This document shows, in pieces, positions 17,879 to 47,029 of a stretch of 64,000 nt of DNA. The notes under the pieces are model-generated. The model was given only the letters and a program-made list of their open reading frames with translations. It was not told the origin of the DNA and ran no database searches. Origin of the DNA: Agelas oroides (lineage: Eukaryota; Porifera; Demospongiae; Agelasida; Agelasidae); contig OX422192.1 in the NCBI GenBank assembly GCA_949130485.1, positions 3,976,085 to 4,040,084 on the forward strand, in the 5' to 3' direction. Position 1 is the stretch's first letter. Each line of letters begins with the position of its first letter. The position numbers and the translations under genes are program-made.

Positions 17879-18133
17879 ATGGGTCACCACCTGGAGACAC
17901 GGCAGTACAGAATCACCGTGTTGTGTGCTCTTCGGAGGGTCTCTGTTTACTCTCGGTCATGCATTTTACAATGGGAGCTGCTTCAGCTTGGGCTGGCCAC
18001 TCTGGGAACTGCCCTAGCTCTCTACTACCTGATGGTGTGTCTCTCCCTGCTGGCGGTACAGGAGATCGTACTGTCTACATTAGTGCTGGTGATGGTGTGC
18101 ACCTGCCTGAGTGTGATACTAAGACCATGGAAG
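17879..18133 (+). CDS. Tentative first exon of gene B: hydrophobic leader module without 2A
   Basis: Begins at an ATG in good context (TTACCATGG) and runs 85 codons to a donor AAG/GTAGGT in phase 0, which joins in frame to the phase 0 entry of the 18441 exon. The peptide contains a long apolar stretch (LQLGLATLGTALALYYLMV, then CLSLLAVQEIVLSTLVLV), suggesting membrane segments. It is clearly homologous to the leader in the next exon (LQLGLATLG against LQLGLTTLG; LMVCLSLLAVQ against LLVYLSLLLLQ), but the DxExNPGP motif is absent. It may be a decayed duplicate and not a real exon; two other frames are also open in part of it. A fragment of the TTAA-element family starts directly downstream (18172). 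Confidence 0.35.
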
Positions 18134-18171
18134 GTAGGTGTTGGCTTGCTATTAGGTGTAACACCATATAG

Positions 18172-18312
18172 CCTGACTTTGAGAGTAGCTCTGAACAAAA
18201 GCTGACATCGATTGATTTGAGATACATTGGTGGATAGGACGCTACCTACAGTGAGCATGTAGATACGTCCATCGAGTGGCGATTTTGGGTTCATGAATAT
18301 ATTAATACGATA
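18172..18312 (+). repeat. Fragment of the TTAA-element family
   Basis: About 140 bp closely matching 42822-42965 inside the TTAA-flanked element (AGCCTGACTTTGAGAGTAGC through TTTTGGGT and CATGAATATATTAAT). It lies in the short intron between the two leader exons of gene B. Confidence 0.65.
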
Positions 18313-18440
18313 CTACTATAAAGTTTTGTACCCTAGTTATTCATGGAGTGATTCAAACTGTTTGCTCTGCACATCATGTACAATCAACAGATAATAATAA
18401 TGGACATGTTCATGAGCATACGTCTTACCTTCCTCTGCAG

Positions 18441-18654
18441 GATACCTTGTCACAAAGATCCAATGTGACATGCACCCTCCCCTCCTTCACCAAGTGTACT
18501 GACCAGGAGATGACTAGGAGCAAGCTCTGTACTGGAGGGTGGGACCACCTCCAGCTTGGGCTGACCACTCTGGGGAGAGTCTACCTGCTGGTGTATCTCT
18601 CCTTGCTGCTACTGCAGGCAGGGGATGTGGAAAGAAACCCTGGACCTACACCTG
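18441..18654 (+). CDS. Leader exon of gene B ending in a 2A ribosome-skipping sequence
   Basis: Acceptor CCTTCCTCTGCAG precedes 18441; donor G/GTAAAT follows 18654 (exit phase 1). A candidate start ATG lies in frame at 18510, giving a 45-residue leader; alternatively the frame is entered from the upstream exon. The leader holds an apolar helix (LLVYLSLLLLQ) directly followed by GDVERNPG/P, matching the 2A consensus D(V/I)ExNPG/P. At such motifs the ribosome fails to form the Gly-Pro bond, releasing the upstream peptide and continuing with Pro. The apolar leader could act as a secretory signal when skipping fails. The last base plus TA of the next exon forms GTA, so the downstream protein starts P-T-P-V-P-M-A-D. 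Confidence 0.8.
18585..18647 (+). other. 2A-like translational recoding site
   Basis: Codons for an apolar stretch followed by GDVERNPGP. The conserved core DVERNPGP is at 18624-18647 and the predicted skip lies between Gly (18642-18644) and Pro (18645-18647). All consensus positions (D, V, E, N, P, G, P) are present, so activity is expected from the known motif. Activity itself cannot be seen in DNA. Confidence 0.85.
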
Positions 18655-18832
18655 GTAAATGATTGTAAATTTTGAAGCCTATGCAGGATATCTACATGTA
18701 GTATGCAGAATTTCTAAGCTATAACATTACACACCTTTACTGTTGTGTGACTGCATCATTTTCTAGAAACTAACCTCCTAACTCAGTATATTCCCCATTA
18801 CCATATAATTCGTATAATTCTTCAATTTTAGC

Positions 18833-21070: not shown

Positions 21071-21197
21071 AAAGTTACTTGATACCGAAAGGAGATTATT
21101 GGTAGGGCTTTGGTCACCATGTGTATCAGCAACTGGTTGGCTATGCACATCTTCTTTATTCACTCTGATGCTTTTGTTAACTGTTTTCCACATGCAG

Positions 21198-21464
21198 TAC
21201 CAATGGCAGATTTTGAAAAGCTAGCAAAGCTTCCAGTGACTGCCAAGTGGTGGAGTCTTGGTCTCCAACTGGGTGTGCCTCCTGACCAACTGGACACCAT
21301 TCAAAGCAACTGTGCTCAGTACCCTGACAGCTCCAATCGATGTCTGGCCAGCATGTTTGAGTGGTGGTTGAGAAACAGTTGTGATTCCACCTATGAGAGT
21401 CTTGCCACATCACTTAATGCTATAGGCAGGAGGGATCTTGCATCGAAAGTTTGTCAAGAAAACA
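21198..21464 (+). CDS. DEATH-domain exon of NLR gene B
   Basis: A 267-bp exon, acceptor TTTTCCACATGCAG and donor ACA/GTAAGT, phase 1 at both ends. It encodes about 88 residues matching the six-helix DEATH fold: an N-terminal helix (FEKLAKLP), the characteristic KWWSLGLQLGV, then QLDTIQSN, the CLASMFEWWL helix, and a final YESLATSLNAIGRRDLA. In NLRs this N-terminal domain binds DEATH-containing adaptors or kinases and determines signalling output. It is placed directly after the 2A skip site, so the released receptor would begin with only about eight residues before the domain. CARD is less likely given the W..LG.QLG signature. Confidence 0.85.
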
Positions 21465-24188: not shown

Positions 24189-25940
24189 ATCTCAGCATGA
24201 TACCTGGAACAACTCCTTCAGCAAGCAACTGTGACCATCCTGTTAGTAGGTATGCAGAGTACCTCAAAACAAAGTACGCTTGTAAAACACTACCTGAGGA
24301 TGAAAAAAGGCACTATGCATCCAAGAAAGGAACAAAGTATATAAACCTGGCTGTTGTTAGAAAATACAATATAGACAAATCAGAAATGGACAAATTTACT
24401 GAGGCCACCATACATGGCAATGTTGACGATATACTGAAGAAGAAACAATCACTGGAACTGAGTGAGGTGGGTCGACTGGAAGGAGGCTCCCTGGCTAGGT
24501 GTGTCCTAGTGCAGGGAGCTCCCGGGGTTGGAAAGACAACAATGGCATGGGAGCTGTGCAGACAGTGGGGAGAAGGCAAGCTGCTCCAAGAATACTCTCT
24601 ACTAGTTCTACTGAAGCTACGAGACAGTTGTGTGCAAAAGGCTACAGCTGTCACTGATCTGTTCTTTAATTCTGATCGCTACCTCCAGTCAGAGACAGCC
24701 AGAGAGGTCAGCCAGTGTCACGGGAATGGAACTGCATTCCTGTTAGAAGGTTATGATGAGCTTCCACAAGAGATGCAAGAGAACTCCATATTTGTTCGAG
24801 TTATCGATGGAGAGATCCTTCCAAAGGCTGGTGTCATTATCACAAGCCGTCCTTCAGCAAGTGATATCCTATTTAAGCACTGTTGTCGGCAAAGCTACCA
24901 GCATGTAGAAGTGCTAGGGTTCACAGAGGAACAAATAAACATCTATGTGAAGGAGAGCTTCAGTGCTGATGAACAGTACCAGCGTCAGTTTGAATCATAT
25001 CTTGCCTGCTACCCACATATTCGTGCGTTAATGTACATCCCATTGAACTGTTCAATTGTCATTGATGTGTATCGATCCAGCAAGGCAAGGGACAGCATTG
25101 TACCCAGGACCCAGACAGAACTGTACACTGTTCTCACCAGGATCCTACTCAGCAGGTATCTAACAGCTCATAAAGTACATGGAAAGGAGAGGAGGTGGAA
25201 CTTACAGAGTCTAGCAGATGTTCCCTTGGAGGTGGAGCAAAACCTTCTGAAACTTAGTGAACTGGCGTATCAAGGCATTGCTCAGCAGCAGTTGATCTTT
25301 CACACCATTCCTTCAGATCTCGAGACACTGGGACTCATGGATATGGAATATGATGAATTGGAATCAGTTTCGTACAACTTTCTTCATTTGACCATACAGG
25401 AATTTCTTGCTGCCTACTATGTATCAAAGCTAACACCATCTCAGCAAGCTCAAATGATAGATAAATCGATAGGAAAAGAACATTTAGTTATCGTGTTGCG
25501 TTTTTTTGCTGGATTAACAAAGTTTAATATTCAACATAGTTCTGATAGTTCCTTTTCTTCCCGACTTTTTAAGTTCCTTAAGGAGCTAGTGACGAGAACA
25601 CCAGCAAAGTGTCTTCGAACGTACTATAGCCAAAGTAGCAGTAAACTAGAGAGCTTGCGGTGGATGTTTGAAGCCCAAGATAAGCAGCTCCTCAGACAAG
25701 CACTTGGCACTGGAACACAAGACCTTAATCTTTCTTATCAGACACTAGCTCCATTTGACTGCTATGTTCTAGGCCATTGCATTGCTTACAGTGACTGCCA
25801 GTGGAAACTTACTCTTCGTCATTGCAAACTGGGAGAAGAGGGCATGAGGATGCTGGCCAAAGGGAGTGGTGACTGTCTCCACAATGCTCAGGAGGTGAAC
25901 CTCAATTTCAGTGATGTGAAGAATGGAGTTACACACCTGG
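24189..25940 (+). CDS. NACHT exon of NLR gene B (NTPase domain plus first LRR)
   Basis: A 1752-bp exon, acceptor ATCTCTTTAG, donor G/GTAATT, phase 1 to 1. Counting from the Met at 24197: residues 19-60 form the linker typical before NACHT (YLKTKY, KYINLAVV); Walker A GAPGVGKTT at 107-115; Walker B region FLLEGYDELP at 181-190; sensor TSRP at 216-219; LGFTEEQ at 240-246; a helical/winged-helix region follows to about 480. From about 510 the first LRR-like turns appear (LNLSYQTL, LTLRHCKLGEEGM). The domain binds and hydrolyses ATP/dATP and drives oligomerisation in the family. The first acidic Walker B residue is Glu184 where Asp is usual. The exon end matches the ends of the LRR exons. Confidence 0.9.
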
Positions 25941-27086
25941 GTAATTGACATGTGCTATCTGTTTGTGTTGTAGTTATGGTATTGCACTACATACAGGTGG
26001 GATAGTCCCTTTGACAGAAATCGTTCAAAGCAAGATTTTTTGCCTTGAAACTCCACAAATATTCTGAATGGTATTAGAGAATGGCTGCAGAAACATGAAG
26101 GTTCATTTTTAGGTTACCATAAGCCAAGGATTTTTGTTGTTGTAGTTATTTACGTGCTGAACTTCACAGTAGACTTGCATCAGATGTGAACAATGCCTTG
26201 TGGCGGAAAATTAAAACCATGTGTATCATATACATGAAGCAGCACTGAGACAGAGTAGACACACTTGACAGACTGCTATGATTTAGGAACTCCAGTGTGG
26301 ATCATTTTGCAGCCTATAAAATTCCCTCTTTTATCATTTACGTAATTTAGGCTATCATGTGTTATCCACTTTGGAGAATGCCTTTGAAACTTTGTGTCAC
26401 TAAAGGTACAATCCAATCTCCATGGTAAACTGTACAGGTGCAGTTTTACGTGGTCATCTACTACAGTAGCCTGACTAAAACAAGGTTTTATTAGTAACAG
26501 TGGAATATTGTGTTGGAGGAACATTGGGGATGACTAAAACAAGCAATGGATTATTTTGTTGAATGAACATTATGTATCCCAAATTTTCATGTTTGAAGCT
26601 CCTTGATTATACTCTGTGTAAAGTGGTGTTTTTATATCATGTCAAGTAATGGACATTATGGGAAGGGTGACTAACCACTACATCTTTTCAGCCTTGAAAG
26701 CATCTCACTAGTTATTCTGCTTGTTCAGATCCTAAGAGCCTAATGCTTTGGGACCAGAACTGAAGTTGTGTGCTGTGTAGCTATGGCAAAGCTCTTTATT
26801 TACTGTGTTGTCTAGAGTGTGATTGCACTTGAGAGCCACATGTCTGGGGAAACTGAAGTTGTACCATGTAGCTATGGCAAAGGTCTTTATTTACTGTGTC
26901 AGACAATCATGATTTCTAGAGTGTGATTGCACTTGAGAGCACAGACCAACATGACTGGGAAGCCCATATCTTGCTGGGTCGTTAATTATAATAGCCAAAT
27001 CATTGTCACCTTGTTAGGTTGTAAATTTACTGATCACTGCTTGCTACTCTGTTGGTTTAATATCCGAGTATCTTCCACTTGTTTGT

Positions 27087-30294: not shown

Positions 30295-32674
30295 GCTCCA
30301 GAGGGAACAGGGATCGTAGGGCTAGCTGCAACAGCTGTAAAATAAAATAAAACATTCAGGGAAAGACTTTGAAGTACCATGTACCTAAATGTTTACCGGA
30401 AAGCCATCCTATGTTCGAAACTGATGCAGATGTTTTGGAGGAATTACTTGTTTTGATACTGTCTGACATACATTTAAACATTAATATCACAATTTTTTGG
30501 GCACACTCCTGGTTCTGATGGGTGGACATATTTTTGGGAGGTAAGCACCCTATACAACACCTTTGCTCAAAAAGTAGGTAGGCATATTTTCAAGAGATTA
30601 CAGTACCTTAGAGTTGAAACCTGTACCCACTCTCAATTGCACAGTTGGCAGACATGACTGCCATTGATACACAAAGCTGTGCTATGGCCTGAGGATCGAC
30701 AATGTGCCAATAACCCAGACTACGTGGCATTTCTACCTGATGTATACCTGTTTATAATTGTAGAAGTTTCCAGTTACATGAGTGTGAGGTACTGAGTCCT
30801 CTGCACCTCAATGACACTTTCAAAGTGTGTCCTGGATGATATTCTGGTAGTGCATTGTCCCATTCATTAGTTGCATGCTCTGAAATGCTAGTCAGAGTCT
30901 TGCAACATGTTTTGCACATTTATGACCTATCATATTATGAGATTACATTAATTAGCTTGGATATGACACTTGAGACAATGAGAGTATTACAGATAGTAAT
31001 GGAGTGAGTTCAGTGTTGAGATTTCAAGAAGCTCTTTATTTACTGTGTCACATAATCATGATTTCTTGAGTGTGCACTTGAGAGCACAGACCAACATGTC
31101 TGGGGAACCCATACCTTGCTTGGTCGTTAATTATAATAGCCAAATCATTGTCACCTTGTTGGGTTGTGAATTTGCAGATCACTGCTTGCTACTCTGCTGG
31201 TCTAATATCTGAGTATCTTCCACTTGTTTGTTTAGAGGTGATCACTATATCAAAGGAATAGTCCTAATTTCACCATGAGAGAAGTTCTGTAGAACATGTG
31301 CTGATATGCATTGGGGATGATTATTAGGAGGCAGGCCATGGCCTTAGAATTTGATAGTTCTTTCAAAGTGTGTCCTGGATGACATTCTGGTAGGGCATTG
31401 TCCCATTCATTAGTTGCATGCTCTGAAATGCTAGTCAGAGTCTTGCAACATGTTTTGCACATTCATATAATGAGATTACATTGCCAGAATTAATTAGCTT
31501 GGATATGGAACTTGAAACAATGAGAGTATTACAGATAGTAATGGAGTGAGTCCAGTGTTGAGATTTCAGTGAGTGCATTAGGAGGAACATTGATCACTGT
31601 GTGTGCATGTTCATTGTTACAACCTTCCTTGTTGTTGGGACATGTCCTCATTGTGTCAGGTGACTTTACTGTCACTTCCATAATGACTGTTGTGTTGTGT
31701 CCTGCTACAGCATCTGCCCTGAGGGGGAACACTGTCCTCACTGAGCTGAGACTAAGGGAGTGTCATATTGATGCTGAGGGAACATCTCACCTGGTGCAGG
31801 CACTATGTGACATTACCACACTGAGGGCACTGGACTTGAGTGGGAACACTGTTGACTCACGGGGTGCTACACACCTTGGTAAGTTGAGTGGTGGGGTCTG
31901 GGGTTATGGGCTCACTTGTAACATCAGACGGTGTCAGTGTGCTACATCCAACAGAGAGGTGTGTACTGTCCAAAATGTGTTCACAATATCTTGGTATCAG
32001 TAGGTGAACTAGTTGAATGTCAAACCCAGTGTGTTAGTTAGGCAAACAGATGCAGGCTCAGAAATACCATACCTGCCTACCATACATGTCACCATGGATA
32101 CAGAAACTCAAATGACATTAAAACTGGACTAGATCATGGCTGAGGTAGTAGTTTCATGATTAACATGTGATTCTTTATTGGATATACAACCTAGACGAGG
32201 AGTATTAACACAGACATACTCCGCTAGATAGTTTACGTACCTGTAGTGTTGCAGAGGGCTCTAGCTGAGTTTATTGCAGTTTTACGTGGTCTTCTACTAC
32301 AGTATAGTCTGACTAAAAACAAGGTTCTATTAGTAACAATGGAATATTGTGTTGAATGAACATTGTGTATGGGAAGGGTGACTGTTCACTGATTATTCTG
32401 CTTGTTCAGAACCCAAGAGCCTAAAGCTTTAGGGCCAGAACTGAAGTTGTACCATGTAGCTATGGTAGAGCTGTTTATTTACTGTGTCAGATAATCATGA
32501 TTTCTAGAGTGTGATTGCACTTGAGAGCACAGACCAACATGACTGGGGAGCCCATATCTTGCTGGGTCGTTAATTATAATAGCCAAATCATTGTCACCTT
32601 GTTAGGTTGTGAATTTGCAGATTACTGCTTGATACTCTGTTGGTTTAATATCCGAGTATCTTCCACTTGTTTGT
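30295..32674 (+). repeat. Segment nearly identical to window positions 1-2345
   Basis: From GAGCTCCAGAGGGAACAGGG onward the two segments match base for base over long stretches, with few substitutions and one ~32-bp indel just after the LRR exon. This is far closer than the other units are to each other. It includes LRR exons A1 and B1. Confidence 0.85.
31711..31878 (+). CDS. LRR exon B1 of NLR gene B
   Basis: 168 bp, phase 1-1, CCTGCTACAG acceptor, G/GTAAGT donor. Two 28-residue LRRs with LTELRLRECHIDAEG and LRALDLSGNTVDSRG. Only three bases differ from A1; the V/A and W/G replacements fall on or beside the second beta-strand. It splices in frame after the NACHT exon (G plus CA gives an alanine codon). 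Confidence 0.85.
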
Positions 32675-46345: not shown

Positions 46346-46873
46346 TCAGGGTCTTGCAACATGTTTTGCACATTTATGACCTAGATTCAAACACGGAACT
46401 TGTGAAACTGGGGAGGCAACAAGCTGGACAAAACCAGTCACCTGGAGAATTACCTGTAGTCTTTGATATTCCTCATCACTGACCCAGGCACACTTGGGAT
46501 GACACAATTTATGGCAAGCATTGCACCGGATGCCTTCACTAATGACTGGCTTGCAGCAAACAACACAAAAGGGCTCACTATACTTTGGGCCAGGGCATCG
46601 TTCAACATCACACGAAGCAAGTAACAGCCACAGGACAAACCATCGGGGTTTTCCATGATGGAACTTGGCCCGGTGAATTGAGAGTCCAACGCACGATCGT
46701 CTCCTAGTCAGTTCCACCTGTGCAATGCCACCACTAGGCAGGAATTCGGGACTAGGGCAGATTCTGGCGATGTGTGGCACTCCCACGAAGTTTTCGAGTG
46801 AAGCAGAGCATGGCACAGTTCGGCAGACTCCCAGAAAAAGCAGCATACATGGGAGTGAGAAATATGCTGCCAT
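46346..46873 (-). CDS. ORF with degenerate 2A-like motif and PHD/zinc-finger-like domain (retroelement ORF1-like, truncated)
   Basis: A 175-residue minus-strand frame. N-terminus: apolar signal-like stretch (YFSLPCMLLFLGVC). Residues ~78-95: an apolar run (WFVLWLLLAS) followed by CDVERCPGP, which has the 2A layout but Cys in place of the essential Asn, so it is probably inactive. Directly after comes a cysteine/histidine-rich segment (CVVCCKPV, then CNACHKLCHPKC) like the zinc finger following 2A in ORF1 of some metazoan LINEs. The last ~12 residues come from flanking DNA, so the frame is truncated. It could be a LINE 5' piece or a captured gene fragment. It lies antisense inside a gene B intron. 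Confidence 0.6.
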   Translation of the reverse strand: MAAYFSLPCMLLFLGVCRTVPCSASLENFVGVPHIARICPSPEFLPSGGIAQVELTRRRSCVGLSIHRAKFHHGKPRWFVLWLLLASCDVERCPGPKYSEPFCVVCCKPVISEGIRCNACHKLCHPKCAWVSDEEYQRLQVILQVTGFVQLVASPVSQVPCLNLGHKCAKHVARP

Positions 46874-46895
46874 CTTATCCCGATCATGTGATGCC
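46381..46895 (-). mobile_element. 515-bp insertion carrying a 2A-like/zinc-finger ORF
   Basis: It interrupts repeat-unit DNA that is continuous in the paralogue at 41375-41400. TTTATGAC occurs on both sides (46373-46380, 46896-46903), an 8-bp candidate target duplication. The inserted strand starts with a short leader and an ATG but has no poly-A or 3' ORF. A LINE would normally lose its 5' end instead, so the mechanism is unclear. Confidence 0.6.
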
Positions 46896-47029
46896 TTTAT
46901 GACACATTATAGTACGAGATTACATTAATTAGCTTGGATATGGCACTTGAGACAATGAGAGTATTACCAATGGTAATAGACAAGTCTTCTTAGCAGGGAG
47001 AGCCTGGGACCGAGGCTGGTAGTCTTGCA

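Follow-up and report, generated by a model that had tools for sequence, protein, structure and literature searches.

Ribosome-skipping (2A) leaders on innate immune sensors are described, in the literature found, from one sea urchin. According to Roulston et al. (2016; PMC4981915), a 2A sequence is present on about 35% (85/241) of the sea-urchin repertoire of NOD-like receptors (NLRs). The leader of SpNLR2A6 skips at about 80% in vitro, products in which skipping failed enter the exocytic route, and mutation of L13 or L14 substantially cut the skipping of the sea-urchin leader, R11 being important as well (PMC4981915). Here, a gene with a comparable arrangement is described from the sponge Agelas oroides. 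It is located in a stretch of 64,000 nucleotides (contig OX422192.1, positions 3,976,085 to 4,040,084), hereafter called the window. Judged from its sequence and with the exon joins predicted, this gene encodes a receptor with DEATH, NACHT and leucine-rich repeat (LRR) parts behind a 2A leader. We consider it likely that a hydrophobic, probably membrane-spanning leader of 153 residues with a working 2A gives rise either to a leader polypeptide plus a cytosolic receptor, or to a membrane-held fusion of the two.

The closest described system is SpNLR2A, as the sequence-only reading of this locus had proposed, and the sponge system appears to be a variant of it with longer leaders. In both, the motif D(V/I)ExNPGP ends the hydrophobic leader of DEATH-NACHT-LRR receptors, and many members of the NLR repertoire carry such a leader (PMC4981915). 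The sponge leaders also keep leucine at the two positions that matter for skipping in SpNLR2A: of 93 non-redundant cores, 91 have Leu at -4 and 92 have it at -5, and positions -4/-5 are L13/L14 in the numbering of PMC4981915 (P3 being the Pro of NPG). The systems differ in that the Arg which matters for skipping in SpNLR2A is not kept in the sponge leaders, and in that the tabled SpNLR2A leaders are 26 amino acids long and would be within the ribosome tunnel at skipping (PMC4981915), whereas the sponge leaders scored measure 129-169 amino acids. The leader type of the window gene is predicted to span two exons, and the description of SpNLR2A as a 26-residue whole N-terminus does not apply to it. 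Sea-urchin 2As are also mentioned within the N-terminal region, so longer leaders may exist there (PMC4981915).

Other known systems are further away. The octapeptide and break point of picornavirus-type 2A (StopGo) are identical, but the viral 2As split parts of a polyprotein, whereas the sponge host gene would split a hydrophobic leader from an immune receptor (PMC12846837, PMC11512398). The NLRD proteins of Dysidea avara are likewise DEATH-NACHT-LRR receptors in an expanded repertoire; in the part of PMC12909245 available, however, the NLRs of this animal are described with an N-terminal DEATH or CARD and with no 2A leader, and neither 'signal peptide' nor 'ribosom' is among the matches listed for that text. 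Among the literature matches listed, compared by title and start of the abstract, there was no report of 2A for sponge NLRs, although a prior report is possible. 2A sequences reportedly occur in apurinic/apyrimidinic endonuclease (APE)-type non-long-terminal-repeat (non-LTR) retrotransposons as well, a finding attributed to Odon et al. in 2013. Those have the same core with a zinc finger in the same open reading frame (ORF); the sponge leaders end in a splice donor instead.

Within the window, the translation of exon B (Table 1) ends ...LLVYLSLLLLQAGDVERNPGPTP, with a core that conforms to D(V/I)ExNPGP and is the only perfect match to the 2A core in these 64,000 nucleotides. When up to three mismatches are allowed, two matches are found against 0.49 expected, a number which 6 of 100 shuffles reach. 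The upstream context is LLVYLSLLLLQAG, a hydrophobic Leu tract of the kind suited to a 2A. The donor GT begins at 18655 (CCTG/GTAAAT), the eighth base after the core with 7 exonic bases in between, and the phase in which the exon ends makes an in-frame junction with the acceptor 21197/21198 of the DEATH exon. By conceptual splicing, exons A, B, C and D form a single open frame of 831 codons. DEATH, NACHT and LRR follow each other in this order on one strand, as in an NLR (the LRR exon being linked by prediction), and the 2A near the N-terminus of such a protein is in the SpNLR2A-type position. The sequence-only reading had reported a complete core at an exon end, a donor eight bases past it and perfect phase to the DEATH exon; the first two hold, as does the third at the sequence level, with NACHT following the DEATH domain. 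It had also called the leader apolar. Hydrophobic sequence does precede the core, but the leader as described there is incomplete, since it starts in an upstream exon. The NACHT exon gives an additional match to NLRC4_HD2 slightly under the Pfam cut-off, and its last position is an in-frame stop, not a splice boundary.

Table 1. Predicted features of the 2A leader and receptor gene (positions in the window)
Feature	Positions	Strand	Remarks
Exon A	17879..18133	+	Start codon in ACCATGG, 85 codons, R-rich N-terminus, two hydrophobic segments; ends AAG/GTAGGT, phase 0; splicing predicted
Intron 1 (GT...AG)	18134..18440	+	Predicted from conservation and splice signals
Exon B	18441..18654	+	Loop, third hydrophobic segment, 2A; phase 0 in, phase 1 out
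2A (StopGo) core GDVERNPGP	18621..18647	+	Predicted break Gly153/Pro154
DEATH-domain exon (C)	21198..21464	+	Pfam PF00531, 33.2 bits, 5.8e-08 (21197-21463); phase 1 in and out
NACHT exon (D)	24189..25948	+	Pfam PF05729, 74.1 bits, 1.6e-20; also found by the genome NACHT search
LRR ORF	31542..32003	+	Pfam LRR_6, 1.5e-07; probably the LRR exon of the same gene, from order and strand

Five C10 loci with the motif were fetched and aligned, the window gene being locus L011. Exon A starts at ATTACCATG, has exactly 85 codons in all five paralogs and ends AAG/GTA(G/T)GT in phase 0. The mean pairwise identity among the five is 95.0% for exon A (no gaps) and 93.4% for exon B (1.1% gaps); for the intron between them, which ranges from 148 to 307 bp, it is 81.1% with 40.7% gaps. 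A genome search with exon A returned 5 matches, one upstream of each C10 2A exon, and the DEATH exon is present in 5/5 paralogs. The Met of exon B (EMTRSK) was rejected as a start codon: it is Thr in the other four of the five paralogs, and in L009 exon B has no in-frame Met before the core. In the window gene, the spliced leader would consist of two exons and 153 amino acids. In the window leader, the hydrophobic segments cover residues 42-60, 63-81 and 124-142 (Kyte-Doolittle window), while in the L013 leader two of the three exceed the threshold. By its sequence, the leader resembles a small membrane protein more than a simple N-terminal signal peptide. The sole Pfam match on exon A is fn3_2, below the cut-off. 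By eye, exon A resembles a tandem homologue of exon B (LQLGLATLG versus LQLGLTTLG) in which the core is absent, so an exon duplication may have lengthened the leader.

Since counting motifs in leaders found by that same motif is circular, searches were made with N-terminal leader parts that exclude the core. Behind 138 of the 149 leaders retrieved in this way (three types), an exact D(V/I)ExNPGP is present. The 82 pieces of the C1/C3-type represent 79 distinct leaders, 71 of which are followed on their own strand by an exact core at most 450 nt away. In the other eight, the core is DVARNPGP in an open frame (L081), is accompanied by a frame shift (L084) or is replaced (L076), or the leader is truncated (L083), interrupted (L080) or carries frame shifts or stops (L075, L077 and L078). 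For type-3, 66 pieces correspond to 65 distinct leaders, with an exact core in 62 (36 by listed place and 26 of the 28 fetched); the remainder are the two near variants DLETNPGP and DIKTNPGP and one fragment of 26 amino acids. The C10-type has an exact core in 5/5. A single open frame connects the N-terminus to the core in 22 of 25 full-length C1-type loci (the broken L053, L056 and L066 were left out), and the fetched 3' part is continuous up to the core in 28/28 type-3 pieces. The natural variants in open frames at L109 (C10:8409704, DLETNPGP), L112 (C1:3098263, DIKTNPGP) and L081 (C3:504403, DVARNPGP) are candidate receptors with altered skipping.

Next to its presence, the constraint on the core was assessed, using the 28 type-3 leaders found by their N-terminus. 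As these were fetched for having cores outside the pattern-match lists, their selection gives no preference to intact cores. In this set, the residues G, D, N, P, G and P never change although synonymous codon changes occur, the V/I position alternates with one L, and E is changed to K once. The x position, by comparison, is free (12 T, 11 M, 2 L and one each of V, I and R). The ratio of nonsynonymous to synonymous differences (pN/pS; uncorrected averages over related, partly near-identical paralogs, no error bars) is 0.17 for the core, 0.30 for the seven residues before it and 0.51-0.81 further upstream. An invariant core around a free x is as expected of selection for 2A activity.

Constraint is also seen elsewhere in the leaders. 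At the N-terminal MGIDLATWRARIGLN of 22 C1-type leaders, far from the 2A, pN/pS is 0.04; this extreme purifying selection suggests a role of the leader beyond carrying the 2A. The C1-type core has a value of 0.13, biased by the way this set was chosen, and two stretches of the same leader evolve freely (0.83 and 1.05). In the five C10 sequences, pN/pS is 0.16 for the last 23 codons of exon B and 1.51 for its first 24 codons, 0.44 for exon A and 0.65 for the DEATH exon. Leaders with this C1-type N-terminus are found at L004-L008 and L049-L068 on C1, with related leaders on C2, C3 and C9.

The exon phase observed in the window is common to most of the leaders. When the best-scoring donor within 27 nt after the core was scanned for the 93 non-redundant cores (loci chosen, not random), it was in phase 1 in 89, with a binomial p of ~2e-37 against one third, which treats related genes as independent and is therefore overstated. 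The exceptions are L052, L062, L098 and L046, the last being of the retrotransposon type and with no donor above zero. Inspection by eye shows a phase-1 donor with a lower score in L052 and a phase-1 GC donor in L062. On the receptor side, a phase-1 acceptor precedes the first DEATH domain in 15/15 type-3 loci. This acceptor is pyrimidine-rich and conserved among the loci, and was picked by eye from several AGs.

On the genome level (259 Mb), the GDVExNPGP codon pattern is matched at 177 places and its reversed control at none; with the wider D(V/I/M)E patterns, 157 and 110 places are matched, again with 0 reversed. A chance origin of the cores was therefore rejected. These totals take in leader-type and retrotransposon-type 2A sites alike. 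The 2A places used were the first 100 of each pattern search, reaching C4, C8 and C11, and in the pattern that reaches C11 the first Pro was covered by two of its four codons. The linkage to NACHT and DEATH was looked at in a sample of leaders. A NACHT match is present on the leader strand in 18 of 20 ten-kb loci, and L009, with NACHT at 11.6 kb, is the 19th of the 20; at L018, no NACHT was found in the 10-kb locus, where DEATH is present. Conversely, 13 of the best-scored 105 of 314 candidate NACHT exons have a listed 2A on the same strand at most 16 kb upstream, whereas the opposite strand gives 0 and the downstream side 1. For contigs C1-C4, which are covered best by the 2A lists, this is 5/45. 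The association is based on the listed 2A places and the approximate places of the fetched leaders, with later contigs hardly covered, and the NACHT counts are lower bounds, as 105 of the 314 candidates were scored.

Outside the 2A end, BLASTP detects no similarity among the three leader types (one example of each compared, best E 0.7), and searches with the three as queries gave disjoint places in the genome. For the C1-type leader, no Pfam family was matched. Nearly all leaders scored have two or three hydrophobic segments; among the 22 of the C1-type, 19 have two, 2 have three and 1 has one. In the C1-type, the distance from hydrophobic segment to break ranges from 9 to 64 amino acids, the short extreme probably being a leader in which only the last segment exceeds the threshold. 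Type-3 leaders have hydrophobic segments ~90-108 amino acids before the break in 10 of 15 loci (MPI/MPS taken as the start), and in the window gene segments end 93 and 72 amino acids before it (residues 60 and 81 versus 153). Further 2A leaders, by eye unlike the three main types, were observed at L043 (C2:935342), L045 (C3:5898310) and L048 (C7:2989302). These also end in a phase-1 donor, and a NACHT is located 2.9 kb downstream of L043 (C2).

In the reading we favour, a ribosome at NPG/P would usually omit the Gly-Pro bond. Upon this skip, the leader would be freed as its own polypeptide, likely into the membrane of the endoplasmic reticulum (ER), and the receptor, starting with Pro154, would be a free protein of the cytosol. 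If the bond is made, the receptor would be linked to the leader and either retained at the ER/secretory membrane or directed into it. The usual outcome would thus be a membrane leader and a cytosolic NLR, with a membrane-fused NLR upon failed skipping. Two receptor pools may result in this way, given the predicted splicing, membrane insertion and skipping efficiency; partial skipping might then act as a switch between them, as the sequence-only reading had suggested. As the segments end far upstream of the break, in most scored leaders one segment would be outside the ribosome, whose tunnel holds 30-40 amino acids (PMC2978324), before skipping takes place, which is not possible for a leader of 26 amino acids.

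Several points weigh against a working 2A with dual targeting as a general feature of these receptors. Most of the 138 exact cores were judged by position and codons only, and the hydrophobic segments were called by a Kyte-Doolittle window. Upstream stops occur in L111 (C21:6925531) and at C1:3173070, and altered cores are found in the leaders, namely DVARNPGP (L081) and, in two of type-3, DLETNPGP and DIKTNPGP. The equivalent of the sea-urchin R11 (-2) is occupied by M in 37, I in 30 and L in 16 of the 93 cores. The second DEATH domain in L019 has an acceptor in another phase, and the 13/105 and 5/45 NACHT exons with a 2A indicate that the feature marks a subset of the NLRs. Moreover, a translocating upstream protein can inhibit 2A (PMC2978324).

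This inhibition could also be put to use. A tentative proposal, which we think unlikely as it stands, is that the leader is a conserved small membrane protein and that ribosomes docked at the translocon make the membrane-fused NLR whereas undocked ones skip, so that the ratio of the two would report the status of the signal recognition particle (SRP) and the translocon. The upstream segments would encounter SRP or the translocon while NPG is still to be decoded, and contact with the translocon could inhibit the 2A. A 2A after a protein under translocation can indeed be inhibited, upon which the fusion goes to the ER (PMC2978324). If true, the receptor ratio would report ER stress or infection over well over 100 leader-bearing genes, and the freed leader may have its own function.

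Among the alternatives, the one with some real, if minor, chance of being right is that 2A skipping is near-complete and yields two separate proteins, a membrane leader with its own job and a cytosolic NLR, with no dual targeting. The value of 0.04 at MGIDLATWRARIGLN is more constraint than targeting alone explains, the scored leaders are as long as 129-169 amino acids, and canonical 2As can reach 90-99% (PMC4981915). A leader with its own job fits less well with the free evolution of other leader stretches (0.83 and 1.05 in the C1-type, 0.78-0.81 in type-3) and with the moderate constraint on C10 exon A (0.44). It is improbable that alternative promoters or splicing mostly separate the leader from the receptor, with a cytosolic receptor starting at a Met of the DEATH exon. 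An in-frame Met is indeed present near the start of this exon (VPMADF in the window gene, VPMAD in 4/5 C10 paralogs) and ~10-15 residues in for two of the three type-3 DEATH subtypes (VVMEE/VVMEV and QVMEEV). Nevertheless, it is missing in L012 (VPTSDL), the type-3 DLKSLH subtype has no Met between the acceptor and the matched domain, and the phase 1 shared by leader donors and DEATH acceptors would be needless for an unrelated leader. An ordinary signal sequence or membrane anchor, in which NPGP is inherited but inactive, is very improbable. 2A activity depends on the upstream context, which leaves room for an inactive motif, but six residues are invariant with changing codons beside a free x, the exact core follows 138/149 leaders found without it, and the retrotransposon-type 2A in the window, by comparison, reads DVERCPGP.

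A 2A followed by a PHD-like finger is the layout of a retrotransposon, and was found both in L046 and at 46346-46906 of the window, but those 2As run on into a zinc-finger ORF and the L046 core has no donor above zero, whereas the leader exons have a phase-1 donor, a conserved upstream exon (C10 family) and then DEATH and NACHT, which makes it extremely unlikely that the motif is a piece of some non-LTR retrotransposon with a 2A, located by chance before a DEATH exon. Retrotransposon ORF1 was likewise rejected as the identity of the window motif, because the donor comes 7 exonic bases past the core and is followed by DEATH, with no continuation of the ORF.

Two further observations concern 2A sites of this other kind. 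At L046 (C1:12658760), and in identical 23-nt cores on C1, C2, C3 and C6, a repeated GDVEANPGP is found; in L046 it is followed by the PHD-like finger, and a non-LTR retrotransposon is likely. The ORF at 46346-46906 on the minus strand of the window contains CDVERCPGP and then a PHD/C1-like zinc finger; it has the order of L046 and resembles a decayed retrotransposon ORF1 2A. Apart from the 2A sites, clusters of cathepsin-family exons were observed at C4:288-302 kb and C11:396-435 kb, where 4/6 sampled have Ser for the catalytic Cys (silicatein-like). In total, Ser is present at the catalytic Cys in 4/13 fetched cathepsin-family fragments (L116, L117, L120 and L123), and in the PDB, L120 is matched best by silicatein alpha. 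Silicateins are a family of the demosponges, and these exons indicate a siliceous demosponge as the host.

Returning to the 2A leader as a probable source of both cytosolic and membrane-held receptors, 2A sequences are found on well over 100 sponge leaders of at least three types, which are alike only at the 2A end. The arrangement thus either dates far back in animal evolution or arose more than once. With more than 100 natural leaders that vary in x and in context, skipping efficiency versus receptor location becomes directly testable. What the long leaders add is that membrane engagement could precede, and so control, the skip, for which the 26-residue leaders of the sea urchin give no occasion.
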